This document shows positions 344-63,799 of a stretch of 64,000 bases of DNA, one piece after another (the stretch's first letter is position 1; each line of letters starts with the position of its first letter). The notes beneath the pieces are model-generated. The model was given only the letters and a program-made list of their open reading frames with translations, did no database searches and had not been told where the DNA came from. The translations under genes were made by a program, and so were the position numbers. Origin of the DNA: Brachyhypopomus gauderio (taxonomy: Eukaryota; Chordata; Actinopteri; Gymnotiformes; Hypopomidae); NCBI RefSeq assembly GCF_052324685.1, contig NW_027506905.1, positions 592,501 through 656,500 on the forward strand, in the 5' to 3' direction.

Positions 344-741
344 CTGAGACACCTTCCTCACGACGTCCCCCGCCATGTTCAGGCCCTGCACGAAGGCGCG
401 AGCGGCGATGAACACGCGCACCAGCCTGTTCTTCAGCTCGCGCGGGGCGTCGCCGAACGGACGCAGCGTCTCCGTCTGCTTGGACGCGCATTCCAGGAAG
501 TCGTCGGAGACCAGAGACGCGGCGGCCGGTTCGGAGGCCTTGAGCAGACGCTCCAGCAGGCGCGTCCAGAACTCGTCGAGCACCTCGTCCAGGTTCAGCG
601 CCGCCCCGCGGTAGTAGCGCCGCAGGTCGGCGTAGAGGTCGCGGAAGACGCCCGCGTTTGGCCCGTACAAGGAGCCCAGGGCTTTGATGAACGCTTCTTC
701 CAGCCAACGCTCAGATCCGTTCAGGAGCTCCAGAAAGTACG
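344..741 (-). CDS. gpc1: gpc1 coding exon 3 (helical core)
   Basis: Acceptor TTGACAG|CG and donor TCTCAG|GTACAG give 398 bp, ending in phase 0. It encodes [17 protein letters not shown] through DVVRKVSQ, a cysteine-poor helical part of the core with one Cys (DFLECASKQ) and one NGS N-glycosylation site. In human GPC1 the corresponding exon also ends just before the Cys-rich exon. GC content is high against AT-rich flanks, as expected for this exon. Confidence 0.94.
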
Positions 742-2467
742 CTGTCAACAAGGATGAAGGAGTTAAAGCCTACACGCCTACAGTGTCTGTTCAAACGGAA
801 CCACAGAGGAACACCAGGTCCAGGGTCAATTTAATTTAGGTGGCTCTAAAATTCTATTCAATCAAAACCACCAGCCGTTCATTTAATTTGCTGCACATTC
901 CTGTGGAAAGTTTCAACATAAATTAAGTTAACGGCTGAACGGGCTGAATGGGCTGAATGCAGCTAATCTCGTCCCTAGAGGTATCAGACCATTTTAGGGA
1001 TCCATTCAGTGACCTTTGAAAAAGGATCCATCCCCCACGTCACGTGTGTGTCATCTCCACAAGAGCACCGTAGGAATGTTCTGACTGCCACTACTTTTAT
1101 GAATATTTCAAAGCGCGAGCTCTGACTGGCTCGGGATGGCAGTGTAGTTTTGAAAATGGCGTGATAAACATGCGCGTGTCTTGGGAGCGCATGAAAAGTG
1201 TTCTAGCTTTGTCCTGCAGCTCAGACGCCGTCCCTGGAGGAGACGCCAGCGCGCACTTCTGCAGCAAGCGCTGAATCACAGCGGCTGAGCTCCCTTTGAA
1301 AAGATAAAAGCCAGAACTTGCTTTCTGCCTCAGCAAGCCTGGTCTCCAGGAGCAGAGGAATCTGCCGTTTTGCTTTGGGACAGACATGTAAAGGCATCAG
1401 TCAGCAGCTGACGTCAATGGCTATTTGGGCCGAAACAGATTGAAAAAATGAAAATAAATGATATCCCGGGAACGATATCCTTATGTCCTTGGTCATCGGC
1501 AGGCCTGGGTGCGTTGGAGCGCAATGTTAGATTGGAGCGGTCTGTGAATGCTTAACAAAGCCATGTCTCACCAGAACACTGCCTCAGCAAATGTAGAACG
1601 CCCCCCACCGTGTGTCTTATTATTCAGAAAATGACTTTACGCAATGTGGAAGATACTTAGCGCAAAGGCTCCTGCTAGTTTTCTTATGGTTACTGCTGGA
1701 TGCAGTCTGTCATGGTTTATTGTGTTTTAATGAGAGACCGGTGTTGAAGGGGATGAAACCCCTTTGTGAGGCACCTCGTCCCACTGGGTGGTTTGGCAGA
1801 GAGAAACACCAGCACCTTCTCCCTTTAATCGTTCCTCTGTCACAAACCAGGAGAGAGAGAGCATCCCACCAGCCCTCCTACTTTCCATTAAGCCAGGTGT
1901 TCAAGATCTAGACAAGACAAGACATCTAGACTAGACAAGATCTTGTTGGACTGAGCTGGTCTGCCTCTATGCCCCCTGAGGCTGCATGGCCTCTCTGCTG
2001 CCCCCTGCTGTGTGACCCAGAGTGTGCGCGTGTACACTACTCACTGTCGAAGCTTCTGTACTGGGCGTTGAGGGAGGCCTGAATGGAGCGACCCGCCTCG
2101 CGCACCAGACCCTCAAACTCTCGGCGGCTCAGGTTGGACAGCGTCTCCTCCATGGCGCTGGTGCAGCAGGTGTACCCCTGCGGACACACACGCAGGTGCT
2201 CACCTGCCCGACGAGTGACAGGACGCACAAGTTACTCACCACTGTAGCTCTTTACAATTTACCTCGGCATATGCTACTGTGCATGTTCGGTAAAATAATA
2301 AAAGGCATCATAACACTTTATTAATCCTAAATGGAAATTAAGGTGTTCTAACAGAGTCCATGCAACACAAACATGGAGAAAATTAAATGTGCCATATTTT
2401 GTCAATTGTGATTTTTACACCCCAATCGAAATTTGTCCTCCGCTTTTAACCCATCTGTGCAGTCAGA

Positions 2468-2499
<32 letters not shown>

Positions 2500-5400
2500 G
2501 ATTACTAGGGGGCTGTGGATCACACGTGCCCAGAGCGGTGGGCAGCCCTAGCCCGGCGCCCGGGGAGCAGTTGGGGTTAGGTGCCTTGATCAAGGGCACC
2601 TCAGTCATGGCCTTAGGTCTGGGAATCGAACCCACGACCCTCCGGTCACAAGACCAGTTCCCTACCACCAGGCCATGACTGACCACAAGGTTCAGGTGGG
2701 AATACACAAACTGCAGCTACAGTTATTGTTCCAGCAGCTGCTACAGTTAGTGTTGAACAGTTAAAACATTTTAACAGAAGCAGGGCTTCCAATAAACTAC
2801 AAAATAGTACATAGGAGCACGACCAGTGTAGAATGAAACAATAGAACGTGCAGAATACTTAGGACACTTAAAGTACTGCGGTTATATAATAACTTCAGCT
2901 TATAATAATATCAGCGATCACCATAATGTGGTTAGTTGCAGAAAATCTGTGAGGTCCGCCCACGGCCACGCGTCCTCACTGGGTGTGAGGAATGACTAGG
3001 TCCTTCTATTCTGGTTCATGCAGTGCAGTGATAGCCAATTGCGAGCTTCTGTTAGGTCACAGAGGGTATACAGTCAGTTCAGGTGTCCTGTAGTGGTGTC
3101 ATACTGTGGTTCAAATGTCCTGCATTATAGCAGCACTGAATTAGCCTTCAACAAACCAGCAACGAAGTGATAAATACTTCACTTAAAGAGAATAACAGGT
3201 CCCAGTCATTACTGTAGATCAACACTGTTATACAACTGGTCCCATGGAGAACACCCTCCAGAATATTACACTAACAACACTAACATTGTTATGTATGTTC
3301 AGGCATGATTTGTAATAGCCCTACCTTCTTTGAAATAGAAGGTTTGGAATCATACATTATTCAATATATTCAAATTAAAACCCATCATTATGCAAGTTTA
3401 AGTAGGATTTCCCTATATTGAATAATGTATGATTTGGAGATTTCAAACACTGGTTTGTTTAACAACGGTCGCCTTTGGCTGGTTCATTAGGGATCTGGAC
3501 CCATACGATTGTAAAGCTGCTTTGTGACAACATGTGTTGTAAATGCGCTATATAAATAAATTTGACTTTGACTTTAAGGATACTTACTATAATATCAGTA
3601 TATCCCATTGGAAGATTTTGACTCTTTTAAAAATTCTATTCAAAGATGTCCTCAACTCACACCACCAAGCACCTGCAAGATAAGGTTGCTTTCTGCTCCA
3701 CGCTGACCTTGGTAGAGAGACATCTAATTGTACACAGAGACCCACAACAGTTCACAAAGGGGTTTCCAGCTCATTAAAATGTTCTTAACCAATATTGACT
3801 ACTCCCCATGTCCATTCCTCGGCCTGCTATAGAAATATTCTGGTCTGTCTTAAGATTGCACAGTGGCCTTGCAGCCTCCTGAAGCTTTCGTTATGTACCC
3901 AGAGGACTACACAGGCCCCAATTCAGGCCCTTACACAGGCCCCAATTCAGGCCCTTACACAGGTCCTTAAACGGGCCCCTACACAGGCCTCTTGGACTTA
4001 CTTTGCGTTCACTACTAACACTTTCTACCTGCAGAAATGTTTATTATCTTAATACAGTGACCAGCTACATGTGTCATGTAATATATCATGGGGGGTGGGG
4101 GAGGGGGGGGGGGGGGGGGGGGGTTGTGGGTTGCGGTACATTCATAACCCTCCTGACCTCAACACAAGATGTTTTCCCAGCTTGGGAATCTGAGCTGTCA
4201 GATCAATCATAAATATGCACATATGTATATTCATGCATATGCATAAACATGATTTACATACTGCTGCTCAAGGCTGGCCACATAAAATCTCAGCAGAGGA
4301 GCTAGCACGTACAGGGATCTGTCACTACAGGTATACTACAGTTACACTACAGGTACACTACAGGTACACTACCACTACAGGTACACTACCACTACAGGTA
4401 CTCTACAGGTACACTACCACTACAGTTACACTACAGGTACACTACCACTACAGGTACACTACAGGTCTTCTCTTTGTCTCTCCCTCTCTGCAACGCCCAC
4501 GCACACACACACACACACACGCACCGAGATACACACATTCTGCAGCAGGTTAGGGAGGTCTTGCGGGAGACTCTCTGGAGATGCTTGACATTTGGCGCAC
4601 GGGTTCCCCCGCCTAAAGCTCGACCTGTGGCAGGGCCAGCGGGGGGTTGACACTAGACCAACGCGCCGTGCATCTTTCATAGCCTCGGACAACATAGCGA
4701 AAATCCCCGCGTGTGCTGAGGTTTATTTATACAGTGAGGTAACACGAAGGGAGGGGAGAGAAACGCTTTACAACCAACCCAGGAGCTGAGCAGCTGGCCT
4801 GAATACTTCCCCTGCTAAGTGCTCAGAGATGCATTTAGAGGAACACTGCTTGGCTCCTTACACCCAAAGTGAATCCACTTAATTGCCGACGACCGTTTCA
4901 TCCTGGAAAAAAACGGGACTCCCTAAAATTTTAATGCGGGACATTTGAACTGCCCCCAACTCACTACAGCACTCAGTACAGGAGAACCGAAAAACACATC
5001 AGGTCAAACGCGCCTATAGAATATCCGCGTGGCAGCTGCAAGCGTCGTAGCACGAGGCCTTTGGCCCCGCCCCCCTCAGTCCCGGGGGTGACGCGAACGC
5101 GCTGGTGTGGCGCGCGTGAATCGCGAACACATTAGCGCGAGCACAGGCAGCCGTAAACCAATAAAGCGAGCCTATAAGCTCATATCCAACCGCCCGCTCC
5201 GGTAGCTAAACAGGCTACAATCTCATTATAACATCTCGTCCCACTCGGCGGAGCTTCCTCGTTTCAGTTCGCAGGCAACGCGGCGGTGTGGCCTGAATAT
5301 CAACACCGGGGGACGGGAGGAGCTGGCGGCCCGCTCCCTCCGCCTCTCTCGCACACGCACGGACACTCAACATGGACTGGAGCTTTGCACTAAAACTGAG

Positions 5401-7508
5401 AGACAGGCAGAGAGTAAGATAGAAATAGAGTGAAAGAAGAAAAAGACAGCAAAACAAATCATCAAGTTTCTGTCTTGCGTGGAATGTATGAGGTGTGGCA
5501 ATAATATGTGGGGTGAGAATATAAATCAGTCTGCTGTGGTCCATCTCATGTCAGACTGTCAGTCTTACCCCATTTATCAGGTCCCATGTGAGCACGTGTG
5601 AATGATGCAACTGCCAGGCCAGGCAGACTCACCAGATCACAGACTGATTAATAGGAAAAAATCACCTGTCTTCCACAAGGAAAAAGCCTTTAAGAGAGAC
5701 TATTTGTCACGAGTACAGACAGCCAAAGAGACGGAGCCGCTGACCTGCGTTCAGGAGGCAGCCGAGGCCCAGCGGGTATGACCACGACAGGGGAACAGAG
5801 ACATCAAGCGGAGTGGCCGGTGTGGAGGGGCAGTGAGAGTGGAGAGTGCTCTACCCACTACAGCTCCTTCCTCCGAGAGTGCTCTACTCACTCCTCTCTG
5901 AGAGTGCTCTCCTCACTACAGCTCCTTCCTCTGAGAGTGCTCTCCTCACTCCTCTCCGAGAGTGCTCTACTCACTATAGCTCCTTCCTCTGGCTGTCTGA
6001 AGATGGAGCACCTACAGACAGGAATCCAGGAACTAATGATCACAGGAATGAAGGAACGGCCACCTGAAATGAAACCGATTCTCCCCTCAAACGTATTATC
6101 CTGATGTATTGCTTACGACTGAGGGTGTGGTGGGTTTTATTGCTTAAATTATAAAGAAAAAAGGCAAGGATGGTATGAACATTTTCCTCGCCTGGCTTCT
6201 GATACACCCATAAAAATGTCCAAATATCCTGTTATAAGATGAGCTTGTAGCAATTAAGGTTATACAAAGTAGAAAAATAGTGGAGCTCCTTCAAAGAGTG
6301 CATACATTCCTCGGTAGTGTTGATAAGATGTGTTTAAAGACAACTATCTGGCATGACTTCTGACAACATATCTGGGCACATTTCAGACAAAAACATGCAA
6401 ACGGCAACAGGAAGTTCTCGCTAGGGATGCTCTTCAAAGTTCTCCTTCAAAGCCTCTGACATTCCAGTGTGAATCCTCCTTCATTTTCCTCTTTTCAAAC
6501 CTTCCCTCTTCTCCCGGGAGAGGATTTGGGCGAGTTCTGCCGAGGTGAGGGAGTGGGGAGTTGCCCCGGGCTTCGTTTTTGGTCGCCGCTCGAGCGAGCA
6601 GGTGTACAACACTCTGAAGGTGAGCCCAGCTGGAGTCATAAATCCCTGAGCTAACCACGAGAAACGGTCATCTCCTCTGTCTCCTGGTCCCCTTGCTCCT
6701 CTGAGATACAGATCGTGTTGACTTTATCCTTGCCTTTACCTCAGTGTATTGTCTAAAAATAGCAATGGAGTTTCTTTGGAGTTTGGTTAAGAAAGAGGTC
6801 TGTGGCATTCCCTGGAAGTTGTATAGCTTCATTCAGTTCACTTCATTATCATTTCATTACTCATTTAAGAGTCAGTTCAACAAAAGAGTGAATGTAGAAA
6901 AAATAGCTACAAATGAACTGTGTGAGCTGGAGACTCTCAGGATGTCCCATTGATTAATGTGGCCTGCTGCCACCTCTGAAGCTCCTCCCTAAAAGACTCC
7001 TTGCTTCTCAGAATAGGGTCACTGTGCCATTATGTGAAAAGACTGGTCTCAATTAAGAGTATGAAGTCCAAGGTAATGAATTCATTCAGTATCACTATAA
7101 TCCCCATCTGACTGCCATCAACCCACAGCATGTGGGGAGCTCTCACCCAGGATAACATGGGAAACAAGGTTAGTGCAGGAAAGACATAGAGAGACTTGGA
7201 ATGACGGAATTAGAAAGGGGAAAAAGAGGGACAGCAGACATTGCTATCCTTTCTTTCTGTCTTACTTTTATTACTTAAGTCCCAGTAAGGAGCAAAATTA
7301 ATATTTATAACTGTTCACCTTCATAGCAATTACCAGATGGAAGAAAGGAAAGTTACCAGAGGAATTATTTCTCTAACCTATTAACCAATAGCACACGACT
7401 AATGGACTGAGTCCCCCTCCTTTCTCATAGTGACTTTTCTTTCAACTAATCTGTTACCTCAGCAACATTCTTTCTCTATCACTCTGTCTTTCTGTCTATG
7501 TATGTGTG

Positions 7509-7588
<80 letters not shown>

Positions 7589-9149
7589 CTCCCCCATGCC
7601 CACATCAGCACCACGCACCACTGTTTCAGCCTCCAGGACCTGATGTATCCGATGTTTTGCTATCTCATGCTCTAAACCCTGACCTCTGACCCAACATTTC
7701 TCTGATGTCTTCGTAAAGGCAATTGGTAGCTGTTTGCTTCGTATGCCTCATAGATGACATCAGAGTGAGACGGCGTACCCTATAAATCATCGCCAAAGGA
7801 CCTTCTAAATGATTTCTGGGGCTGTTCTCTAAAGCTAGCCCCTTGCATCTTGAAATTATCGAGTTAGCCTCGTGATTTTACGTATATACCACACACACTA
7901 TGTCATAAATGTGATTGCGTGCTTGTGTTTTGCTCTGCGAGTGTGCACGCACTTGTGTGTGTGCCTGAGGTTTGGCTTAAGTTAAAATAGCCCAGGCTTG
8001 TGTGCTATTTAGCATGCACATGACCTGCTACCATATGCATTTATTCAGCTTTATAGCCATGGGGAAATAGAGAGGGAGCCAGGGAATGGGAAATATCAAG
8101 GTTCTAACAGGGATAACTAATGACTAACTCTGATCCTGTAATGAAGGCAGTAACACTCGCTCTGTGCACCAGAGTTTTTTGTTTCCAAAGAGAATGACCC
8201 TAATCCTGTGCCTGCCTTTACACACATGGATGTATAAGAGGAACAATGTAAAATAAATGAAGTTGTTTCTTATGACAATTAGGTTGACTTTTATGTCAAT
8301 ATACATGACAGACACTGGAACCATATCAGAACGAGGTTCATGCTAGCCTTCACCTTCCTGGCTTGCCCATGTTGTGGAATTTGAGGAGGTTCAGTTAGCA
8401 AGTGAGTGGAATGAAAATTACAGACGGAAGAAAATGTATATAAAAATAATAATGAAAATTGTTTTTAAAATGACAAATGAACCTAAAAGGTCATTATTAA
8501 CCACCTGCTTACAGTAATATACCGCTTAATATGTACTAGTCAGGAGCTTATTGTTGAAGTTTGTAAACAATATGACGATCATAAACTCTATTCTTTCTTT
8601 AATTGGGCACAGTCCCACTGCAGCAGCAGGCAAATTAAAGTAATTTAACAAGATAATTTTTTATTTAAACATTTATGGCCGCATTCTCTTAGTCACACAC
8701 TGCCTACCACATTTTTGATCATTTTTACATAAGAATGCTAATTTTTTTTAACAAGTCCAATTATGACAAAATAAAGGGAGATGCTGTCGGGCTAAATATC
8801 AGAATAAAGACAGCTGCTTTGGCCTTGATATTCTGACAGAAATAGTTAAAAGGTACCAAAGAAAAGTAGCTGACATTCCCCATTACAGAATTGTTGAAGT
8901 AATTCGAATGTCTGATCTTGTTGCCTTAGTAGTAAGAAGTGCTTGGACCCCAATAATTGCTGTGTTTATGTTTAGATCTGGTCCTGCGTCCAAACTGTCA
9001 AATGAATGAGTTCAAATATCAATGTTTTGCATCGTTGCTAATGGCAAACTATGCCCAGGAAAGCAAACCAGCACTTTGATTTGAATGTTTCTAGGTTTCC
9101 ACAGGACTAAAAATATACCACTAGTTAGACTCAGCACTGTGTGTGTGTT

Positions 9150-9204
<55 letters not shown>

Positions 9205-12200
9205 GGGGAGGGGGGGTCTGTGTGAGAGCATGTGTGGTTTAGCTGCAGAAAACACACCAGACCACAAGGGCTCCTGAATAGTTACTTTGAAGCTTCTTTG
9301 AGACCCAGAGTCATATTTTTAGCTGGCACTTTAGCTACCAATGCCTGTTAAATATTCTGCCTTAGTGGTACATACAGATGTTGCTATGGAAGAAGCTGAG
9401 GGGTGTGTGTGTTGGGGGTGTGTGTGTTTGTTGGGTGTGTGTGTGTTGGGGGTGTGGGTGTGTTGGGGGTGTGTGTGTGTTGGGGTGTGTGTGTTGAGTG
9501 TGTGTGTGTTGGGGGTGTGTGTGTTGGGGGCGTCCATGGCCCCGAGAAGCCCACTGATAATGAGAGAGAGCCGAATCTTGGCAACTGCGAGGTGAAACCT
9601 CAAGCCTCACAATCACAGGACCCAGAGATCCAAACGGAGAGGTGCAGAGAGACGGGATACGCTCACTCTGGTTTAAAACTGCAGAGAAGGGCGACTGCCT
9701 GTCAGTGCCTCTGTGATGCACTGACCACTTCATCAATCACATCAGAGGTGTTAATGGTCAGGTGAATACCTGTCATCTTCTGCTCATGTTTGTTCTAAAA
9801 GAACCCAGAGAGTGTGAAGGACATTGGAGAGACTGTGACGCCAGCCGCACATTCAGCAAACACAGTGGTAGAAAAATGCAGTAATGCTGCAGTGAAATCC
9901 ATATAATGATCACAGCACTGATCCTCTTAAGCCAAAATAAACAGAGACCCAAATCAAATACAGCTCCCTTCTGATTGGTACTTTTGCCATGCGTGATTGT
10001 TAATGAATAAAGGAAAGCTTTGAGAAACATCTAACCTGCCACACAAACCTTTCAGAAGACAAACACTCCTCATATTATACGCATGCATTCTTCAGTAACA
10101 CAGCGCACACACACACACACAATTTATTAAACCCTGTTCAAATTGCTATGCTCGGTGCTCCTTAAATCTGGATTACAAGACCTTGGATTAAGCTCGGGGT
10201 ATTTGTGGCTGTAAGACTCGCTAATCTCTCAGCTGTCATGCATTGTGTTAGCCTGGCTCCAACGGTCCACGGCAGTGGACCTGGACGTACGGTGTCCTGA
10301 CCAGTGGATGTACAGTGGTGGGGTTTTAGAAAAGGGACTTCATCCTAAATCTGGACAACAGTGATAATTAATCCATATTTTAGCAGAAAATCTGTGGTGT
10401 CCTCGTTACCAAGCAAATCAGACTACTACAGAGCAATACATCTGAAAGGTTGAAACATGACATTTCAAATAATTCACAAGTTGTTAAATGCGTGTCAGAT
10501 TTGTACCCCGTGGCTTCATATACTCTATTCCTGTGAAGATGAAAGGTGTGAGGTTGGGTTTTCACGAAAGTGCACAGCAAGAGTTAGAGGAGCTCTGCTC
10601 TGACGTGGGTGTTGTGAATGATAGTAGCTATGTGTGTATGTGATGCGTGTGTCTGATCGGCTAGCACCTAAAATAAGAAAGCAAAGCCCGTCACTGCATG
10701 TCAACCGTCGGATGTCAGAGGTTCTCCAGAGCGACACCGTGGGCCACCTGTAATCAGTCCATTGCAGCTCATACTCTAAGTCAGCCCAACACAGAATCTT
10801 ACTCTCCGTAAATGACAACTCCTTCCAGATCTCCCCCGAGCCTCCACGAGGGTCCAATCTGTCAGATTTCAAGGCAGTTCTGCTCAGCACGATTAAGACT
10901 TCACACTTAAAGTAACAACCCTCAGTGACCTTCTTTGACCTCCTGTACGGGACTGCAGGACTAGAAGCAGACAGATTAGCTAACGACCCACTCATTATCC
11001 CATCCAGAAGGAACGAAAACATACCTACTGTTTCTCCAGAAGCTGTGACCGTTCAGCCAATAACTGAACTGGAAGCTCACACCTCTGATCCTAACAAGCA
11101 GTTATGACAGATCTCGTGTATGCTCAGGAAAGTATTTGAAAGTCAAGACAGAAAGGATGTTCGTGACCGCAATGTACTTCAGTAACACAAAGGATATGAC
11201 AAAAACTAGAATTTCCATATTCTAATCTACCCTAAAGGGGAAATAGTAGTTTAGCAAAGTGAGCTCCCTGTACTCAAGGTTTGACTCTGAGAAGAGTAGA
11301 GAACTTAATGACTGAAAAGTATGTAAGTTTGTGAATCACTTAATAGATCATTTAACAGCTACTTATTGGCTTTAATCACCCACACTTAATCACTAAACAC
11401 TATGTGTTGGACCTGAACTACCACCTAAGAAGGGTTAGCATTACTTTGCCCCCTGTCAATCACTGTGACACTAGCCGATCGTGGCTGGTGTTTGCTGATG
11501 AGGGCAGTCTATCGCAGTACAGGCCGCGGTTTGTAAAGACGTTTGGTGTAATGCGTCTTGGAGGAAGCACGTGCTTCACCACACCGTACAGGGTCAGTCA
11601 GTGTCTCTTGATGGGGGAGGATAGCATAAATGCCTAACTTGGAAGACAATGGATTGAATATAGTAAAATGTAAAAAACAGAAATATAGAATAAAATGATA
11701 GACCTTACAAATGTAATTCGGAGGCATACGGGTTTGACCAAAAGCCAAATTCCCACCATAATCTCTGTGGATCTGTGTCGGGGCTGAGGACACACTATAC
11801 ACGTTCACTACACACATTCTGCTAGTCCTTTCCCCACCGATTCGAGAGCGTGGCGCAGGTTAATGAGGGGTTGCTTAGGTGCAGATAATCCACTCATTCC
11901 TGAGCCCCTTTAGTGACTAAGAGAGCGGGAGAAAGATGATCTCCCACCGAGAGCTCCGCTCGCCTGATCTCAGTATGACGGCTCATCAGTTCAGAGCGAA
12001 CCACATGCAGCCACACCACGGGTTCCGACCGGCACCGGCGTCACGTCTCAGTCCCGGACGACATCCGTGCACAAAGCTCTATTGTACACACAACTCATTT
12101 GTGCAGAGAGCTCAGCTGTACTCTCCTTCTGCCTCAGCCCCGACCTTAACAAGCGCACAAAGGGTCTGATACGTCAGTGTTGGGTGAGGTGTGTGGAAAC

Positions 12201-12420
12201 GGTACACAGAGGAGCAAGATCCACGCTGCTGAGTTCAAGACTGCACGTTTGCATGAACGTGAATTTGCAGTGGAATATCGTGAACAACCAAGGTCAGGTG
12301 CAACAGGGTTTATGCTTTTCCAGGCAGCAATATGTATGACTTCATGTTGGGTATCTGTACGGTAGATTTATCCATTGTTGAGTTGAAAATTTCTCAGACA
12401 CAGAGCTAGCACAGGGGGCG

Positions 12421-12476
<56 letters not shown>

Positions 12477-15451
12477 AAAGAACCAGACTTCTGGTAGTCC
12501 ACAGCCTTGCTTAAACCAAACGACATTAAAGATGTGTCATTATTATAAAGACAAAAGTATTTCCAAGTCATTAAAAAGGTGCAGGTCAAATACACGAGAT
12601 AACTAGAAAACACTCTGCAAACCAATCCACACAGCAATAACGTGAAACATCTTGCAAAAAAAATGGAGACGCGAGCGACTCTCCGACCCCTCAAGGTACA
12701 GAAATGTCGCCACATCCTGACAACACTAATAATCACTCCTCCATCTTCATCATTCACTCTCATTGCCTTGGCCAGCGTCTCGCGGTGAAGCAGGAGAACT
12801 AGCTGGCGGAAAAAGCGCAATTAATATTGACAGAGCAAAGTGGCTGGAGGAACGCCAGGCGCTGCTGTGAATTATTCACAGAATTTCAGTTAGCCAGCGC
12901 ACAGCGCGCCGTGATGAACACTTGTCGTGAGCTGTAGCGGACTGATTACAAATGTAGCAACAATTACCGTTGTAATGTAAGCAGGTGAAACGCACGATCA
13001 TTTTTAACGGTAGTGTTATACTCAGTGCGAGTGTGGAGGAGAATTAATGCAGGTGTATCTTTATGTTTATGGGCTGCTTATTTCTGTGTGTGTGTGTGTG
13101 TTGTGTGGGTGGGAATCTGAATCTGAGAAGGATTGATTGGAGATGATGCTGTGTAGGCCTGGCCAGTGTGCATGGGGCACTAAAAAGTCGCAGCATGCAT
13201 GAAAAAAGAGGTGAGAGATACAGAGGATCTTCTAAGACCCAGTCCAGAGAGACTCCAGCAGGATCTTCTAGGATCACTAGAACCCAGTCCAGAGAGACTC
13301 CAGCAGTCAGCCTGGGTTCAACTGCCAGTAGATTTTAATGGCTTACAGGTGGAAGTGTCATGGGAAATGTTCACTGAATGTTGTTCAAAGCTGCATTTCT
13401 GCTCTGCAGTTAAAGGAATAAGCAACACAATTTAAAGCAGTCTGCTTTGCACATGTTATTAATTAAGACTTTAATTATACCATGCTTTGGCTGAAAATTA
13501 ATACACTGACAATTGAAGATGTGAGACAGTAATTAAAATGTATTTTATAAATGTTTCTTAGATGTTTGTGTGCTACTAACCAAATATTTGTTAAGTAAGT
13601 TGAGGTTCTTTGACAGTGCAGCATGTGGCTGGGAAAGTCTGACATAAACAGATGAGTATAGGAGTGTGTGGCTGGTTGGGTGTGTCTTCTAAAGTTCACA
13701 CAACTATATGGGTGTGGACTTTATACATAGCACAGAGCAGAGCGCATGTTGGCATGACTTACACAGGGCTAGGAGAAATTGGTAGAGCTCACGAAGCAAG
13801 TGTGAACATCTCTTACTCTCACCGAATTCACAAATACACACACGCTTGTGTTCATGTGCAGACCCACATCAAACACAGGAAGAATGTCTAACCTTTACAC
13901 ACCTTAACACACAAGCACACACACACCTACACACATCAATGCACATACATACATCCACCACTTCATATAGTCTGCAATGTGATCTTGTCTTTGTTTAGTG
14001 TCACTGCAGGGCTTAAATTGTCACCGAGTCTCATACTGAACAATATAAGGGCTTCTGCACTTAACGATGGACGACACCTTAGTCGGTCTCGTAATTTCAT
14101 ACGTGGCGGCTCAACTCCAGTTTCCCTCTGACCTTTAAACAATGTTCATCACCTCCTTCTCCTTAAACACCTTTAAGGCAAAGAGAGCTGTAAAGCCAAA
14201 CTCGGTTTCTTGGACCATTTTCCGTTCGGTCTGTCCCAGAACACAACGCTAGGATTCCACTGGCAACAAAATAGTGCCAGCGCTGACATTTAAGAATGCA
14301 GCACCTGCTCCCACCGTCCTGTTCTAACCAACTCACACAGGCAGCCCGCTTCTATTTTGTGTGCTAAGTGGCACTGTGGGCCAAATCTGGAAGTCATCTC
14401 TCAGCAGTATCCTGGTACCTGAACTACCCCTGCAGCTCATGTTTGAGTCCTGACTCCCAACACACCTCAACTCACCCTGGCTGGGTTCCCTGAAAGCATC
14501 GTAACACAAAGATCACAGTTAAATGTTAGAGTGAGTATCAGATGAACATTTTCTCATTCAAGGTGATCTTAACACGTTTAGTGCTTTTAGGAAATGGAGC
14601 TCACCAAATTACAAAGTTTTTTATGAGGGCTTAAAAAATAAGTGTGCCAGAACAGGAAAACACAGGGGAACCCCAGAACCAGTATTTAGAAATCCTGTCC
14701 TAGACCTCAGCTGTAGACTTTAGCTATAGATTTCAGCTTTAGTCCTCAGCTCTAGCACAGGACTGTGTAGCTCACGTGTGGGTGATTATGTATCACTGTA
14801 GCTCGATCCATGGGTGATTTTGTAGACCACAGCTTTAGACCATGGACGTTACATCTTTCACATAGCACATCCCAACCCCTGTGGAAGTTTTCTGCCTTGT
14901 TTTCTTAGTACTGAATAACAATAATTTATATTCCCTGTCTGCTCTTCAATAAGTATATGCCTAATGTGGTGCATATGATAATATCATCCACTATGAATCT
15001 ATAGCAGCAGGGGCTGCCACAGTACAACAGCCAATCACACAAGCTTATAAACTGTAATTTGCATAAAGCACACAGCAGGCATGGGGGGGGGGGGGGGGGG
15101 TACACTTCTGTTTTCCTGCACTTCTGTGTTTCCCCTGCAGATGCTTATGCCTTGTTTAGTGAATGAATAAAACATGAGGATGGCCTTGCATGATTTAGGC
15201 ACGGGCGTGCCGGGTGCTGTCATTAAGCGTGAAGCTCTCCTCTTTGAGCGTGCTGTCATTGAAACGACACGCAGTCACCTTGAAAACCTCCATCCGGCCA
15301 ATAGGCTCCCTGCCACTTCCTCAATCCCCCCCCCACCCCACCCCACCCACCCCCACGGCTCTGGGAATGCCAAGACAGATGACTATACAACAATTACGAC
15401 TGGGGAGACAAGGTGGTGAGAGTTATTGAGCCTACTAGTGTGTATGTGTGA

Positions 15452-15526
<75 letters not shown>

Positions 15527-15561
15527 GGTGGGTGGGTGTGTGTGTGTGTATGTGTGTGTGT

Positions 15562-15618
<57 letters not shown>

Positions 15619-17068
15619 GGTGTGTGTGTGTGTGTGGGTGGGTGGGTGGGTGGGTGCATGCATATGTGTGTGTGTTTGTATGTGTGATAAAACTATATAG
15701 CTCAATAGGCTGATTTAAGTGTCAATATTTACAACCTGTACCTCAGTTATCTGAGGGCCATGAATAAAGGCAATCTGCTAAATTTGGAAGGTAGTTATAA
15801 AGGTAATGCTACTGAAAACTGTGAAATCGTCAGTTGTCATCGTGCTTTCATTGTATTCGAGAATGTGTGTGTGTATCTGTGTGTACAAGCAAAGCATGGA
15901 CATCTGTAATCATTTATCTCCATTTATCAGACACACAGACAAACCTGACTCTGTGCCCTTAAACCATACACTGCGGAAACAGATGGTTTGTATTTTAGTG
16001 CTTCATAAACTATATTATGTTAATGGGAAGGTACTTATTTTATGATCTCTCTTCAAATTTTGTGTATGCTTTGTCACTATGATTGATAGGTATTTTAAAA
16101 TTAGGCATAAGTCTGATCCAAAGAGTCCAGAACAAGAGCAGACAGGCACTGCTGCACCTGCCAAGCCTCTTCTGGACACTTTTCCAGGGTAAACCCATCT
16201 TAAGACACTCGCTGTTGTTGTCATAACAAGTATTTTGCAAGTGCGGAGACTTCATCTGTCTACATGTCTCCTAATATATGCGATTATAAAGTGATTATAC
16301 ACCGGGATTTTTTTATAGGCACTGACAAGCTTGTGTGATACAGGCACAAAAAACGATATTCTTGCTTCACACTACGCTGAGGGACTGGGATTAATAACAA
16401 AAGAATAATCTACATCGATCCAGCCCACACCCGTTCTCATGGGGTAGGATGCATACGCCACAAAAACTCGTTACCAACAAAGACGATCCCGGTATCTTTC
16501 AGACTTTCCTTTTGCCCTGATCCGAATTAAGGGGGGAAAGTATGACATTTGCAATGACGAAATCCACGGTAAAGCGCATAGAGGTCGGGTGTAGAATTCA
16601 GATCACATCTATGCGCATTGTGGGCAGCCTTTGTTCGGGACCCCCGTGTGGCTACAGATGCGTCTTGAACTTGAGCCGTAGCATCATAACGCATCACAGA
16701 ATATGTGACCCTGTCACCTTATACAACACTCCGCTATTTCGGTTTTAAACAAACCACCAATATGTGGACTGTCAGGTCTTCTGCAGCTCCGTCCCAAATG
16801 CGTAATAACTGGACAGTGAGGAATTCGTGGCAATTTAGCCAGAGGGTAAAGAATAAATTGAAGTGTTTCAGCCGACCGGTCAGTGAAAATACTATCTTCA
16901 CTTATTCTTACCTGATATCTCGGATTGAGGAACACCGTTTAATGTGAACCCTTTGCCGCTGTAGAACTGACGGACATCCGCACAGCTGCGGGCTTTAGCG
17001 CCTGTGTTATCCGCACACACACACACGGCGACCAGGCAGACGAGGAGGGGAACCGGTGTAAGATCCAT
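344..17068 (-). CDS. gpc1: glypican-1, 5' part of gene (exons 1-3 of a gene cut by the left window edge)
   Basis: Core protein of a GPI-anchored heparan sulfate proteoglycan that binds FGFs, Wnts and other ligands at the cell surface. Three coding exons join in phase on the minus strand: 17068-16912, 2203-2045 and 741-344. They give 238 residues, about the N-terminal 40 percent of a usual ~550-residue glypican. Visible are a signal peptide, the first conserved cysteine ([10 protein letters not shown]), the CPQGYTCC block of exon 2 and a long helical exon 3 ending DVVRKVSQ. The wording [19 protein letters not shown] and [20 protein letters not shown] fits GPC1 better than GPC2, 4 or 6, from memory of the families. 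The Cys-rich signature, heparan sulfate sites and GPI tail lie beyond position 1. The next gene upstream is another glypican on the same strand. Teleosts may have two gpc1 copies and I cannot say which this is. Confidence 0.93.
742..2044 (-). other. gpc1 intron 2
   Basis: 1.3 kb between exons 2 and 3. At 1901-1940 a TCTAGAC/GTCTAGA-rich stretch with AAGATCTAGACAAG and ACAAGATCTTG makes a short imperfect inverted repeat. Nothing else recognisable. Confidence 0.7.
2045..2203 (-). CDS. gpc1: gpc1 coding exon 2
   Basis: Acceptor GGGCAG|GT and donor GACA|GTGAGT give 159 bp, phase 1 to phase 1. It encodes [20 protein letters not shown], then [16 protein letters not shown] and a helix ending [14 protein letters not shown] holds three of the 14 invariant glypican cysteines. 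NLS is a potential N-glycosylation site in the region where human GPC1 has one. Confidence 0.93.
2382..2681 (-). mobile_element. tRNA-headed SINE (type A)
   Basis: Read on the minus strand, a tRNA-like head (GGCCTGGTGGTAGGGAACTG, then the B box GGGTTCGATTCCC) leads to a body and a (CA)n stretch ending near AATTTCGATTGGGGTG. The same body occurs at 57831-58121, showing it is a dispersed family. I do not assign a family name. Confidence 0.75.
3348..3434. repeat. 87-bp hairpin repeat with perfect 21-bp arms
   Basis: 3348-3368 and 3414-3434 are exact inverted copies (AATCATACATTATTCAATATA) around a 45-bp loop. It may be part of a MITE, but I found no target duplication. Confidence 0.6.
3505..3576 (+). 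repeat. teleost retroelement 3' tail
   Basis: TAAAGCTGCTTTGTGACAAC followed by GCGCTATATAAATAAATTTG and a GACTTT repeat. This resembles a tail shared by many fish retroelements, from memory. Confidence 0.45.
4090..4123 (+). repeat. poly-G tract
   Basis: Interrupted G run ending with 21 consecutive G. Possible G-quadruplex, or a collapsed homopolymer in the assembly. Confidence 0.8.
4326..4466 (+). repeat. short minisatellite
   Basis: Degenerate units of TACACTACAGG and TACACTACCACTACAGG. Confidence 0.8.
5846..5995 (+). repeat. minisatellite built on GAGAGTGCTCT
   Basis: About five copies of GAGAGTGCTCT(A/C)CTCACT alternating with ACAGCTCCTTCCTCT; unit length varies. Confidence 0.75.
7511..7587 (+). 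repeat. (CT)n microsatellite
   Basis: About 38 uninterrupted CT units. Confidence 0.95.
9138..9530 (+). repeat. (GT)n array and GT-rich minisatellite
   Basis: (GT)n to about 9196, then unique DNA, then from 9401 repeated GTGTGTGTTGGGG units. Confidence 0.85.
12421..12476 (+). repeat. (CA)n microsatellite
   Basis: About 25 CA units. Confidence 0.95.
15449..15662 (+). repeat. compound (GT)n/(GGGT)n array
   Basis: GT runs broken by GGGTGGGTGGGT blocks in at least three places; about 214 bp in total. Confidence 0.95.
16912..17068 (-). CDS. gpc1: gpc1 coding exon 1 (signal peptide and first conserved Cys)
   Basis: Starts at the ATG at 17068 (context CACAATGG). It begins [20 protein letters not shown], a typical signal peptide, then [15 protein letters not shown], the glypican N-terminal cysteine block, and ends PQSEIS plus one base. 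The donor CAG|GTAAGA follows at 16911. The exon is 157 bp and ends in phase 1, matching the GT that opens exon 2. A very short upstream ATG (ATG TCT TAG) lies in the presumed 5' UTR. Confidence 0.93.
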
Positions 17069-17583
17069 TGTGAGGAGCCTGTCTGGGCAACTCGGGTGGT
17101 ATCAGTGCGGTTTAAAGGAGTCCTGGAAACCAAACTAAGACATCCAGTGTCTTTACTCCCGAAGCAAACAGACGATGCGCCCCAGTAGGTTATACCGGCA
17201 AGCGGTTCCCGTTTCTCTGGGTTCACGCCCGTCCAGGTACCGCTGGAGCCGATGTCTTGAAGTAGCCTGGGTTATTTATCAGTCCGGCGGGTTTCCGTAT
17301 CTGGGGCTCATGTCTTTTAAAAATTCCCGATGAAACAACCTTAAGAATATTTACGTGCAGAACAAAACAGAGAGTGGAAATATCCGGGGACATGTACAGG
17401 CACACGCAGAAGGCACAAGCGGACGGAACCAGTGCTGCGGACTCCCCGGTGTTTCACAGGCTTCACGCCTCCGACTGGTCCTCGCCCAGAGAGGTGCGAG
17501 CCCAGTGTAAGCGAACCGAACCACCTGCAGGCGGGTAGACGCCCCCTGCCGCCTCCCTCGCTCACTGTGACGGCTGATATAAC

Positions 17584-17584
<1 letters not shown>

Positions 17585-17634
<50 letters not shown>

Positions 17635-17839
17635 GAAATTAAACATCTAAAATTAAACACCTTTCTTGAAAATATCTAAATAGCCCCCATGTCCCGGTCA
17701 CACTGGAGTGTTTAGAGATCACAGATACGGAGACGCAACAGGCACTACACATATTCTACACACCACGAGCAAATAAAGGTATTAGTGCTGGGTACATGCA
17801 GCAGTCCTAAAATCTTACACACACACACACACACATATA

Positions 17840-17873
<34 letters not shown>
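17585..17873 (+). repeat. two (CA)n arrays upstream of gpc1
   Basis: 17585-17631 and 17817-17873, about 520-800 bp upstream of the gpc1 start codon. Confidence 0.9.
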
Positions 17874-18598
17874 CACACAAGGCCAGGAAACACACTGGCC
17901 CCTGGCTGTTATAGGCTCCAAGCTCTTTTCTTTAGGGTAACGATCATGTAGACCAATTTCTTTTTGTTTGTTTGTTTGTTTGTTTTCTGCATGTAAATGC
18001 TTCTTAAGCTTGTAAAGCCAAAAGGTAAATTGTGTGCAAGACGAGATTTGCCCAAAGGCCATTACAGTCAAATATATCGAATATGAGGTTCATAGTTCCA
18101 CTACGGTCAAAGAAGGAACGCTAAACAAATCAAAATGGATTGCAAATAAATAGTTTGTGGTTTGAAGGATTCTGCTGGGATGAAAGGTCATTAGCCACGC
18201 GGTTCTGACCTGTTTACTACTGAATATCGGGAAACGCAGAGTACGGAGAGCCATGCTGTCATTTTAATATATCTTTCCCTGCAAAATTACACAGCTAATT
18301 AAACAAGGGCGTAAATCACAGCAAGCGAGGCTGCACGGAACACTCAATGGCTCGAATCGTGGATATGAAAACGTGTGAAGTGGGTAACTTGGTGCTGTAA
18401 AACACAGCCGAGTTCATTCCATCTCTTATGGACAAAACGTCTGCGAATCGGCGTGTGTGTTTTGCTTTTCTGACACTTGCAGTGCGCTGATGAGGACTTA
18501 GACTAGACGGAGAACTAACCGCGTTAAGAGGAGACTTGTTGATAACAAGGGGCAAGCTGGGGCCTGGAAAGTCACATGTTCATACGCATAAACATACG

Positions 18599-18644
<46 letters not shown>
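18599..18644 (+). repeat. (ATC)n trinucleotide array
   Basis: About 15 uninterrupted ATC units. Confidence 0.95.
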
Positions 18645-18647
<3 letters not shown>

Positions 18648-18750
18648 AAGTTCGAGGAGGCATAAGGTGGAAGAGAACAAAATAAGATAATCAGCGGGTT
18701 TTGTGGGCACACAAAATAGGCGACGCCAACGCTCTCGAAATCAGACATTT

Positions 18751-18756
18751 TTTATT
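18751..18756 (-). terminator. candidate polyadenylation signal for the gpc5-like gene
   Basis: AATAAA on the minus strand, about 1.06 kb past the proposed stop codon. It is the first canonical hexamer I found downstream; variant signals could lie nearer, so this is tentative. Confidence 0.3.
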
Positions 18757-19817
18757 GATCGATTAACGCGCGAGCCTCATAACACATTACTGTCAACACG
18801 TGCACGCGCAACAGCTGCACGAGACTCACCGAGTCACGCGCTGCCTTTAGTGCAGGACGCCGATAAGTGCTGCAGAAACCCATATATGCAGAACAAAAGA
18901 GAGATACGGTGTAAGTGTGGGAATACTTAAGTATTTTTTTGTGTGTTATGAGGTTTTGTCTACACACATTTTCTTAAACATTTTTTGCTTCAGCAATCTA
19001 TGAGTTATATTACGTAGTCAAATATTTTTTTTATCCATTTTACACTGGGCACTCGCGTCCCATACTACTGTGTATACATACTATAGATTTCTCCATAAAT
19101 ATGTTAATTTACATGTTATCTCATTTATATGTCCTATAAATATACTACTATGCATTAAAATTAGATTAAAACATCGCTATCGCAATACGTTCTTGTATAC
19201 ACATGGTACATACGGCCATACAACCATATGGTGAATGTCAAATAACTTCACTTGTCCTGCACAATACTGTGAATGAAGGCAGTTATCTGTAGTACAATGT
19301 GAACTCTGAACTCTGCAGATCTCCAGAAGCATGGGTAGATTGAAGGAAGGACTATTATAGCACAAAGCTTGTTCCCAAACACCATGTCTGCTAATGGCAG
19401 GAGGCAGTTTAATACTAAAGAGTTCATATGTAAATTTCAGATAAGAAGGTGACAACTGTGGGAACATGTGCAGCAGAGTTAATATTTCTGTAGCTAGCGC
19501 ACAACATAAACTGCCACTTAGATAAAATAGAGGGAAAAAATTCTACAAAGCAGGTAACAGCTAACAAGCATTTGTTCACAACACAAGCTCAAAGACAAAA
19601 CCCCCCTCTCCCCTCCCAAAATCACAGAAGCACCTCATGTGAAGCAAATGGGTTCTCTGGCTTTGGCAGGCCAGCAGAGAGTAGCTAGCAGGGGTGGACC
19701 ATGGGATGGATCAATGGGTGGGCGTTGGTCTAAGTGTCCAGTGCAAGTGCATACGTCAGGCCTCCAGTGTGTCCACACCCACTCCTGGCCCAGTTCCTCC
19801 GTGTGGCTGGGGGGGTG

Positions 19818-55477
<35,660 letters not shown>

Positions 55478-56773: not shown

Positions 56774-57127
56774 ACAGTGAGGAAAATAAGTATTTGAACA
56801 CCCTGCAACTGCTACTTTCTCCCACTTAGAAATCATGGAGCAGTCTGACATTTTCATCTCATGTGCAAAAATTTAAATCCGGAAATCACAATATGATTTT
56901 TAATAATTTATTTATGTGTTACTGCTGCAAATACGTATTTGAACACCTGTGAAAACCAATGTTAATATTTGGTATAGTAGTCTTTGTCTGCAATTACAGA
57001 GGTCAAACGTTTCCTGTAGTTCTTCACCAGGTTTGCACACACTGCAGGAGGGATTTTGACCCATTCTTCCACACAGATCTTCTCCAGATCAGCCAGGTTT
57101 CTGGGCTGTCGCTAAGAAACACGGAGG

Positions 57128-57277
57128 GGGCTTCCACCCCCATGCCCGGCACCCAGGGAGCGGATGGGGTTAGGTGCCTTGCTCAAGGACACCTCAGTCA
57201 TGGCCACAGGTCTGGGAATCGAACCCATGACCCTCCGGTCACAAGACCTGTTCCCTACCACCAGATCATGACTGCCC
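57128..57277 (-). mobile_element. truncated SINE inside the Tc1 relic
   Basis: Minus-strand head GGGCAGTCATGATCTGGTGG, then GTAGGGAACAGGTCTTGTGA and B box GGGTTCGATTCCC; body stops near CCGGGCATGGGGG. It replaces the middle of the transposase region. Confidence 0.8.
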
Positions 57278-57830
57278 CAGTCGTCCTGTCCCATGTGCAG
57301 AAAAACACCCCCAAAGCATGATGCTTCCACCCCCATGATTCACAGTAGTGATGGTGTTTTTGGGATGGTTCTCATGATTCTTTGTCCTCCAAACACGAAT
57401 AGTGGAATTAGGACCAATAAGTTCTATTTTGGTCTCATCTGATCACAGAACGTTCCCCCATGTCTCCTCTGGATCATCTAAATGGTCATGGGTGAACTTA
57501 AGACGGGCCTGGACGTGTGCTGATTTAAACAGGGGAATCTTCTGTGTCATACATGACTTTAAACTATGACGTCTTAGTGTATTACCCACAGTAACCTTGG
57601 AAACAGTGGTGAAATTTTGTCTCTGGTGTCGTGTCTTTGCACTTTGCCATGTTAGTAGTTGGAGTCTTACTGATTATGTGGAGTGGACAGGTGTGTTTAT
57701 GCAGGTAACGACCTCAAACAGGTGCTTCTAATTTACAATAATAAGTGGAGTGAAGGTGGATATTTTAGAGGCAGACTAACAGGTCTTTGGGGGTCAGAAT
57801 TTTTGCGAATTGGCAGGTGTTCAAATACTT

Positions 57831-58510: not shown

Positions 58511-58583
58511 TGCCCCGTGTGAGGCTCGAACTCACGACCTTCAGATTATGAGACTGACGCGCTGCCTACTGCGCCAACGAGGC
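58511..58583 (-). tRNA. tRNA-Met (CAU), elongator type
   Basis: A 73-nt cloverleaf on the minus strand begins GCCTCGT and pairs with ACGGGGC plus discriminator A. The anticodon CAU is at 58550-58548 and the T loop reads GTTCGAGCC. The body follows elongator tRNA-Met rather than initiator. An Ala-type reading is excluded by the anticodon. A run of six T for Pol III termination follows at 58506-58501. No intron. Confidence 0.95.
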
Positions 58584-59491: not shown

Positions 59492-60089
59492 ATGTCTGGC
59501 CTTAACATAACTCTCGTTTACTTCATAGCTGTGGTCGCCATATCTGCGTGTGCTAGAGCTCTGCTTGCATGGCAGAGGCCGACATGGAGTTTCCTGGCTG
59601 AATTCATTGCTGCTTTCTCACTTGCAGCCTCCAGACTGGAGGTGCAAACCATTTCTGAGGTGGGCCAGTGGGCCTTGGGTTTAGGGCCAGACGTCACCCT
59701 CACCTTGCTTTTCCTCACCCTAACTGTCCATGCAATCATCATGCAAGGAGTCAGTGGGAATCCTTCGGTGACCGCAATGAGGTTTCTGCAGAAAGGGGAC
59801 GGAGGTGTTTCCAGTCTCCTGAGCGTGGCTGCCCAGTTCTCAGGCGCACATCTCGCCCTGATCTTGGCCGGCCGGTACTGGGCAATGGAACTGACGGACA
59901 TGCATATGCTAAAAAATCTGATGTCGTCGGAGTGCAGCAGCTCCCTGCGCTGTCCGCTGGTCCAGGGGGTGTTTACAGAGGCCGTGAGCGCCTTGATCTT
60001 CCATCTGGCACAACTGGGCCTGGAATGCAGGTCACAGCTGCTCCGGACTCCCTTGCTGGCTCTCCTTCTGACCTTCCTCTTTTACGCAG
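59492..60089 (+). CDS. aqp12: aqp12 exon 1
   Basis: ATG at 59492 (CATCATGTC). It encodes about 199 residues including the first pore box GNPSVTAM and most membrane segments, ending FLFYA plus one base. Donor ACGCAG|GTATGG. Reading on past the donor leaves the family pattern. Confidence 0.94.
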
Positions 60090-61022
60090 GTATGGAAACG
60101 ACACCGATGACTTTACTGAGTGGCGTGTATTTGTTGTTGTCTTTGGATTCACAGAATGGCTGTGGTCTGCTGTTTTTCACTTCATCCTTTTCTTCTGGTT
60201 ATCTTTTAATGTTTCCTGGCTGTATGAAGCACAGTGAACTGCTTTTGTGTATCAAATGTGTTACACAAATGAATTTGCCCCATCAGGTATGTCAGTTAAG
60301 AGAAAGGTGACCTGTGTAGCGCTATCACCAAAGCATCTAAACAGACATTTAGTTCATTTTGGTTAAACAGGAATATGAGTATTATAATCAGGTATATAAG
60401 AGAAAGGTTTCCAAATTCCAAACCCCTGCAGATAATCAGATGTTCTTGCATGTGTTCCTTCAAGGTAACAACTTCACGTCTGCTTATGTGAATCCATCCC
60501 TTGCGTATGCCCTTACCTTCACCTGTCCTGGCCACACCTTCTGGGAATATCTTCTAGTCTACTGGCTTGGGCCCCTCATTGGTAGGTCACTCTACACTGG
60601 ACAAAACATTTGTGATGCACCTGTAATGCCGAATGCTTTAAGGATTTCACACGTGTGACGTAATCTTACATTAAGTTCTGCTTCTGAAGTGTCATCAATA
60701 TTCCTAATCCAGTTTCTTAATCATGAACAAATCTGCGTAATCACTTTCTTATGCCATTTGGATATGTATACAATTTACGCAATTGCTGTAGATGAGGCCT
60801 TTCAAGAACAAATCTGCAATATCAATATTGTGCATGAAGACACATTTAACGTTTGATTATGATAAATATATACATGTATGTGATATTTTTTCAGGCATGG
60901 CCCTGTCCTTGTTTCTCTATATGGGCAACATTCCTTTGCTTTTCACCACGAACCTGCTTTACTCAAAAAAAGCACGCTTCCGTTTGCCAAAGGGGAGAAA
61001 TTCTGAAGAGGAAAAAGAGTAA
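59492..61022 (+). CDS. aqp12: aquaporin-12 (superaquaporin)
   Basis: Intracellular channel of the AQP11/12 group; mammalian AQP12 sits in internal membranes of pancreatic acinar cells. Exons 59492-60089, 60465-60581 and 60895-61022 join in phase to 280 residues (human about 295). The start MSGLNITLVYFIAVVAISAC parallels AQP12 and not AQP11. Later landmarks are GPDVTLTLLFL, WAMELTDMHMLKNLM, HTFWEYLLVYWLGPL and NLLYSKKARFRLPKG. Both pore boxes are NPS (about residues 90-92 and 209-211) where classical aquaporins have NPA. A Cys nine residues after the second box (about residue 220) is the superaquaporin hallmark. About six hydrophobic segments are visible. Introns are 375 and 313 bp. Linkage to a GPC1 gene matches human 2q37. 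Confidence 0.95.
60465..60581 (+). CDS. aqp12: aqp12 exon 2
   Basis: Acceptor TTCAAG|GT and donor CATTG|GTAGGT; 117 bp, phase 1 to phase 1. It encodes NNFTSAYVNPSLAYALTFTC and the YWLGPLI segment, including the second pore box and the superaquaporin Cys. Confidence 0.94.
60895..61022 (+). CDS. aqp12: aqp12 exon 3 and stop
   Basis: Acceptor TTTTTTCAG|GC; encodes GMALSLFLYMGNIPLLFTTN, then LLYSKKARFRLPKG and an acidic tail ending at TAA (61020-61022). The basic NLLY.KK..R.P.G stretch is typical of AQP12 C termini. Confidence 0.94.
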
Positions 61023-62699: not shown

Positions 62700-63061
62700 G
62701 GTTTGTCAAAACTAGAATCTAACAATAGATCAGAGTAAATTCTCAAAATCGTGTCTGAGAAATAAAACATGCGCACAATGACATCCTGGCTAGTTCTGTA
62801 TTTTTACTCTTCATCGCGGACTACAGCCAGCAGGAGTCACGTGTCGCCATCTTTCGGAAAGGATCCTTAAAACACCCGATACCTTATTAATAATAATAAT
62901 AATAATAATAATACCTTATTAATGGGATATTCGCCATTGTATTTTAAGCACGACAGGTCACAAAACATGTGCTAGCTTTACGAAATATCGAGTAGTGTTT
63001 CCTGAAGCTGGAATAATTTAAAATCACGTAATACAGTACCTGAAAAAGATGTAAAACGTAT
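62700..63061. other. upstream of rpp21
   Basis: Short promoter-side region with a (TAA)n run at 62888-62913. No coding sequence seen. Confidence 0.5.
62888..62913 (+). repeat. (TAA)n trinucleotide array
   Basis: About eight TAA units, flanked by copies of ACCTTATTAAT. Confidence 0.9.
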
Positions 63062-63135
63062 TGGCCCGTACGGGGATCGAACCCGCGACCTTGGCGTTAT
63101 TAGCACCACGCTCTAACCAACTGAGCTAACCGGCC
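63062..63135 (-). tRNA. tRNA-Ile (AAU)
   Basis: 74-nt cloverleaf, GGCCGGT pairing with ACGGGCC plus discriminator A. D arm TTAGCTCAGTTGGTTAGAGC, anticodon AAU at 63101-63099, T loop GTTCGATCC. A TTTT terminator lies at 63056-63053. Sequence is essentially the vertebrate consensus. Confidence 0.96.
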
Positions 63136-63727: not shown

Positions 63728-63799
63728 CTCCCCGTCGGGGAATCGAACCCCGGTCTCCCGCGTGACAGGCGGGGATACTCACCACTATACTAACGAGGA
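63728..63799 (-). tRNA. tRNA-Asp (GUC)
   Basis: 72-nt cloverleaf, TCCTCGT pairing with ACGGGGA plus discriminator G. D arm TAGTATAGTGGTGAGTA, anticodon GUC at 63766-63764, T loop GTTCGATTC. A TTTT terminator lies at 63719-63716. Matches the vertebrate tRNA-Asp consensus. Confidence 0.96.

Follow-up and report, generated by a model that had tools for sequence, protein, structure and literature searches.

A glypican gene of the GPC3/5 type, here called X, stands head to tail with gpc1 in Brachyhypopomus gauderio; it is probably a working member of its subfamily, and the X-gpc1 pair probably represents an ancestral tandem block of which three copies survive. This block would have been copied in the two genome duplications of early vertebrates, and its X-gpc1 copy would have lost X in mammals and been doubled in teleosts. 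The stretch of DNA analysed (the window, C61:592501-656500) comprises 64 kb of a genome of 796.5 Mb in 840 contigs. In mammals, the GPC3-GPC4 and GPC5-GPC6 pairs each have the GPC3/5-type gene first, followed on the same strand by a gene of the GPC1/2/4/6 type. X and gpc1 have the same order, also on one strand, but the partner of X is GPC1, the spacing is 2.7 kb and X is not among the six human glypicans. These arrangements are most likely explained by a tandem pair, a GPC3/5-type gene followed by a GPC1/2/4/6-type gene, that existed before the vertebrates. Copying of this block, presumably in the two early vertebrate genome duplications, would have yielded X-GPC1, GPC3-GPC4 and GPC5-GPC6; the X lineage would have been lost in the mammal line, and X-gpc1 would have been doubled in the teleost duplication.

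Gene models of the pair

X is an eight-exon gene on the minus strand (window positions 19818-55477) encoding 581 residues, rather than the 601 given in an earlier sequence-only reading of this DNA. All inner boundaries of its eight coding exons carry AG/GT, and the phases match (1,1,0,2,2,0,1). The exons of both genes are, in window positions:

55309..55477, minus: X exon 1, with the ATG, the signal peptide and the first conserved Cys (10 protein letters not shown)
54176..54337, minus: X exon 2, CxxxxPTCC block
47654..48357, minus: X exon 3, large core exon of the GPC3/5 type, a stretch that is split in GPC1/2/4/6 genes
45167..45339, minus: X exon 4, KVC and linker, without an RxxR motif
44446..44568, minus: X exon 5 (21 protein letters not shown)
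35879..35999, minus: X exon 6 (25 protein letters not shown)
31609..31747, minus: X exon 7, predicted glycosaminoglycan attachment region, Ser-Gly/acidic
19818..19972, minus: X exon 8, hydrophobic GPI-signal tail and stop, the least certain exon
16912..17068, minus: gpc1 exon 1, starting MDLTPV, ATG at 17068
2045..2203, minus: gpc1 exon 2
344..741, minus: gpc1 exon 3; the gene continues past the window

Exon 8 was chosen from eight candidate ends by phase, acceptor and hydrophobic tail; the signal peptide was judged by eye, and the C-terminal GPI signal by a hydrophobicity filter on this weakest exon. The coding sequence of gpc1 starts 2749 bases downstream of the stop codon of X. The gene models thus bear out the initial description of a minus-strand pair of glypicans from different subfamilies, arranged head to tail about 2.7 kb apart, with the GPC3/5-type gene upstream. 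Exons 1-3 of gpc1, when joined, give an open frame in phase; the exon with the glycosaminoglycan site and the C-terminus lies beyond the window, and the DNA expected to hold the intervening exons reads N. The claim of complete exon chains with all diagnostic cysteines therefore holds for X (eight exons, 14 Cys) and not for gpc1, of which the window contains exons 1-3 only.

The X protein matches the Pfam glypican profile (PF01153) with 362.3 bits (6.8e-108; curated cut-off 26.4); judged by sequence, a chance origin of this identity is out of the question. All 11 solved chains that match X are glypicans. The best one, glypican-3 (7za1, 7za2; 1.7e-84), shares the cysteine frame of X but is only 36.3% identical to it over 364 columns, and exon 4 of X lacks RxxR. 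This motif was looked for in exon 4 and none was found; GPC3 is cut by furin in the corresponding region. The 14 cysteines of the family pattern are residues 32, 63, 70, 71, 198, 253, 263, 266, 275, 279, 286, 350, 424 and 435, as assigned by our own reading of the alignments, the family number of 14 being taken from the available excerpts of PMC3828384. Residue 147 is an additional Cys within the core, and further ones occur in the signal peptide, in the SG stretch and in the tail. SG sites are positioned at 504, 511 and 523 within an acidic stretch close to the C-terminus, and three N-glycosylation sequons are present.

The predicted product of X is very probably an ordinary GPI-anchored proteoglycan: it would be secreted by means of its signal peptide and folded by seven disulphides, may carry heparan and/or chondroitin sulphate chains on the SG sites of exon 7, and may be anchored through exon 8. 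The best guess for its role, by analogy, is that of a cell-surface proteoglycan tuning hedgehog and other ligands; like GPC3 and GPC5, X may act on Hedgehog, Wnt and FGF ligands at the cell surface. A new biochemical mechanism is not suggested.

Phylogenetic position and age of X

The Pfam glypican profile yields at least 41 matches in the genome, which, together with matches from later searches, were sorted into ten genes: X and gpc1 in the window; a gpc3-type and a gpc4-type gene on contig C11; a gpc6-type and a gpc5-type gene on C12; a second gpc6-type gene on C4; a gpc2-type gene on C2; a second gpc1-type gene on C158; and a twin of X distributed over C19 and C158. The names GPC1, 2 and 3 are backed by solved mammalian relatives, the others by position and tree. 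Zebrafish likewise has ten glypican genes according to the excerpts of PMC3828384. The tree was computed from 12 of 13 aligned rows, the C158 gpc1 fragment being dropped; the alignment is gapped (X twin 2/4 segments, gpc1 of C61 2/4, gpc5 of C12 3/4), and gpc6 of C12 and gpc2 of C2 are incomplete.

In this tree, X falls with GPC3 and GPC5, apart from GPC1/2/4/6, with a support of 100/100 for the split. An undivided large exon 3 is common to X, the C11 gpc3 and the C12 gpc5, whereas the GPC1/2/4/6-type genes are cut there. The adjacency of the two window genes could suggest that X arose independently from the local gpc1, by tandem duplication or conversion, yet a grouping with GPC1 is rejected (deltaL 125, AU 1.8e-87) and X has the exon 3 of GPC3/5; this origin, refuted by the topology test, deserves hardly any credence.

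X groups with its twin at 99.5/100, and fish GPC3 with mammal GPC3, to the exclusion of X, at 97.8/97; the node joining X, GPC3 and GPC5 has a support of 0/47, with X on a long branch. Such a node would accommodate a reading in which X itself is orthologous to tetrapod GPC3 or GPC5 and was relocated by a rearrangement, the other fish genes having been assigned wrongly. However, the C11 gene beside gpc4 is the one that pairs with mammal GPC3, at the support just given, and C12 holds a GPC3/5-type gene beside gpc6, so that a misassignment of this kind is quite improbable. In the AU test, positions of X beside fish GPC3 alone (p=0.0066) and beside mammal GPC3 alone (p=0.033) are rejected; the more conservative SH test rejects neither (0.445 and 0.453, respectively). 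Among the three possible orders, with one GPC5 sequence, the AU values are 0.74 for X outside (GPC3,GPC5), 0.49 for X+GPC3 and 0.27 for X+GPC5, so that each of the three is compatible with the data.

Because GPC5 is represented by a single sequence, the fish gene on C12, nesting of X within fish GPC5 was judged by distance. The maximum-likelihood (ML) distance between X and GPC5 is 1.35, compared with 1.17-1.22 between GPC5 and GPC3, and X is farther from both GPC5 and GPC3 than these are from each other; the fish-mammal distances of GPC3 (0.96), GPC2 (0.88) and GPC1 (0.62) are all below the X-GPC5 value. Over aligned columns, X is 39.0% identical to GPC5 (126/323) and 36.3% to mammal GPC3 (132/364), GPC5 is 40.8% identical to mammal GPC3 (131/321), and fish and mammal GPC3 are 48.6% identical (176/362). 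Taken together, the tree, the topology tests and the identities let X behave as a third lineage of about the age of the GPC3-GPC5 split, if not older. At the level of sequence, X does not look like a recent copy of GPC5 or GPC3 and behaves as older than the fish-mammal split, unless it is unusually fast-evolving; a fast-evolving X could mimic age. The phylogeny agrees with the sequence-only reading as far as X lies outside the fish and mammal GPC3 clade, and does not reject X+GPC5 (AU 0.27; 12 rows, one GPC5).

An alternative is close to the published view: X may be a GPC5 duplicate that arose after the two early vertebrate duplications and before the teleost duplication, was placed beside gpc1 and then evolved fast. 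The AU value of X+GPC5, the long branch of X and the interpretation in the excerpts of PMC3828384 are in line with such a duplicate. On the other hand, a random insertion would have to hit the side of gpc1 in the order and orientation of GPC3-GPC4; X-GPC5 (1.35) exceeds both GPC5-GPC3 and the three fish-mammal orthologue distances; and the exons of the twin set the age of X before the teleost duplication. We consider this late duplicate rather unlikely.

Block order, the X twin and flanking genes

The preferred reading of X-gpc1 as a block copy draws on gene order. On C11, gpc3 and gpc4 are arranged head to tail, in the same order and orientation as X-gpc1 on C61, whereas the C12 pair lies on opposite strands (gpc6 at 13361786-13502736, plus; gpc5 at 13584407-13627405, minus), with about 80 kb between the nearest exons found. 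As gpc5/gpc6 are still neighbours on C12 and gpc3/gpc4 on C11, three blocks of a GPC3/5 and a GPC1/2/4/6 gene coexist in this genome. Near gpc2 on C2, the profile search saw no partner of the GPC3/5 type, and stretches reading N could hide one. In the tree, GPC1 and GPC2 are not sisters and GPC2 groups with GPC4/6 (76.5/64), so that the simplest two-round scheme is not favoured. The excerpts of PMC3828384 describe the GPC3-GPC4 cluster as well conserved in Eumetazoa, and the ancestral tandem pair is hence not a new idea.

The X-gpc1 arrangement seems to exist a second time, on C19 and C158. Besides known paralogues, a genome search with the X exons located X-like counterparts of exon 1 (53% identity) and exon 2 (54%) on the minus strand of C19. 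It also located an X-like exon 6 (63%) on the plus strand of C158, about 65 kb upstream of exon 1 of the second gpc1; this gpc1 has the same orientation, and X-like exon and gpc1 thus follow the block order on one strand. Since the two exon sets are complementary, they were read as one twin gene split over two contigs, although exons pieced together in this way could be parts of two loci. The ML distance between X and the twin (0.56) is close to that between the two gpc6 genes (0.50), as would be expected of copies from the teleost duplication. Over 118 codons of exons 1, 2 and 6, X and the twin differ with dN 0.27 and dS 1.30, and at a dN/dS of ~0.2 X is under purifying selection. That X is a decaying pseudogene, for which the missing RxxR in exon 4, where GPC3 is presumably cut, might be adduced, is very improbable in view of this ratio, the eight open exons with consistent splice phases, the 14 cysteines and the transcription of gpc5b and gpc5c in zebrafish reported in the excerpts of PMC3828384. 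As the twin apparently lies beside the second gpc1, the pair must have existed by the time of the teleost genome duplication, if not earlier. The initial statement that this fish kept both members is hence too narrow in scope.

Flanking paralogues are supportive of a block duplication, not decisive. In human, GPC1, GPC5/6 and GPC3/4 occupy the same bands as STK25, STK24 and STK26, respectively, and COL4A1/2 lies on 13q with GPC5/6, COL4A3/4 on 2q with GPC1. The kinase genes map to 2q37.3 (STK25), 13q31.2-q32.3 (STK24) and Xq26.2 (STK26), as given in the excerpts of PMC6585022. Four collagen IV gene pairs were found in B. gauderio, one of them at a distance of 1.5 Mb from gpc6 on C4, another 3.9 Mb away from the exons of the X twin on C19, and two on contigs without a glypican match. 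The chains of the C4 and C19 pairs were compared, with alpha-6 not among the chains and the C33 and C16 pairs left out. On C4, the even chain is alpha-2-like (409.6 bits versus 338.7 for alpha-4) and the odd chain groups weakly with alpha-1 (60/50). On C19, the even chain is a tie (alpha-2 308.6, alpha-4 308.4 bits), and in a weak tree the pair leans to COL4A3/A4 without significance (AU of the alternative: even chain 0.12, odd chain 0.36). That two of the four collagen loci fall on glypican contigs has a chance of 0.17; for a position within 4 Mb, a radius picked after seeing the data, it is 0.014. DOCK matches are present on C4 and C19, their subfamily not being assigned.

The proposal of the sequence-only reading, an ancestral block copied in the vertebrate duplications with the GPC3/5-type member lost in mammals, is thus supported in part, by the coexistence of three blocks and by the position of X, which lies outside the GPC3 clade and at least as far from GPC5 as GPC3 does, while the AU value of X+GPC5 (0.27) still allows a tandem or transposed GPC5 copy older than the teleost duplication. 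Compared with individual gpc5 duplications, a third pair of ohnologues that mammals have lost is the better fit.

Zebrafish counterparts and further features

The guess that the gene may already carry a name in fish proved right: the excerpts of PMC3828384 list gpc5b and gpc5c in zebrafish, so that the genes and the gpc5b-gpc1a arrangement are already in print. There, gpc5b and gpc1a are neighbours on chr22, as X and gpc1 are here, and gpc1b and gpc5c are both on chr2, again a second gpc5-like gene with a gpc1 on one other chromosome. The gpc1 N-terminus in the window reads MDLTPV, compared with MDLTAV in our translation of the zebrafish gpc1a primer (PMC3828384, excerpts); given this start and the position of gpc5b adjoining gpc1a on chr22, X probably corresponds to gpc5b and would be its orthologue. 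By inference, the twin would correspond to gpc5c; its start, MSRELV, recalls the MSR coded by the zebrafish gpc5c primer (same excerpts). In contrast to the present interpretation of gpc5b/c as a third lineage, PMC3828384, as excerpted, files them as GPC5 orthologues from individual gpc5 duplications. It gives an identity to human GPC5 of 55% for Gpc5a and only 39% for Gpc5b and Gpc5c, as would be the case if the latter two formed a separate lineage. The excerpts also state that gpc5-gpc6 contiguity was lost in zebrafish, whereas the two genes are still adjacent, on opposite strands, on C12 of B. gauderio. Zebrafish gpc5b expression is described there as maternal, in the floor plate and later throughout the nervous system, that of gpc5c in posterior somites.

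Slightly less probable than the block reading itself is the fuller proposition that X constitutes a seventh glypican lineage deserving its own name, born with GPC1 in the vertebrate duplications, retained as two teleost copies and lost toward mammals, where its hedgehog/growth-factor role would have passed to other glypicans. Queries of the open-access literature (top matches for the broad ones; subscription journals lie mostly outside) retrieved no paper in which gpc5b/gpc5c stand as a lineage of their own within GPC3/5 that arose together with GPC1. If this proposition is right, two zebrafish genes named as GPC5 orthologues form a separate lineage, and results on gpc5b/gpc5c should not be carried over to human GPC5. 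The glypican family of early vertebrates would then have comprised seven or more genes, arranged in tandem blocks, and X would provide a clean case of a gene lost in mammals that is recognisable by block order.

Upstream of X, and head to head with it, lies a further gene:

59492..60583, plus: aquaporin, AQP11/12 kind, at least two exons, end approximate

Its two exons, when joined, match PF00230 (4.4e-7) and contain the motifs NPSV and NPSLA, indicating a divergent type; we take the subfamily to be AQP11/12, and the name aqp12 in the sequence-only reading is plausible by position.

Long open frames at 38713-40233, 28721-29503 and 34250-34822 were rejected as coding; they overlap long tandem repeats (39041-40079, 28756-29341 and 34290-34617), which hold several frames open and thereby imitate coding, and Pfam gave no match for the frames 38804-40225, 28721-29503 and 34250-34822. 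The last intron of X contains two UnaL2-type LINE 3' ends (22548-22601, plus; 28106-28159, minus). Three tRNA genes on the minus strand flank the aquaporin on both sides (58511-58583, Met; 63061-63136, Ile; 63727-63800, Asp). Upstream of X, at 57112-57673 (minus), frames resembling pieces of a Tc1-type transposase were recognised by eye, and pieces similar to Tc1-type frames match between the C61, C11 and C12 regions.
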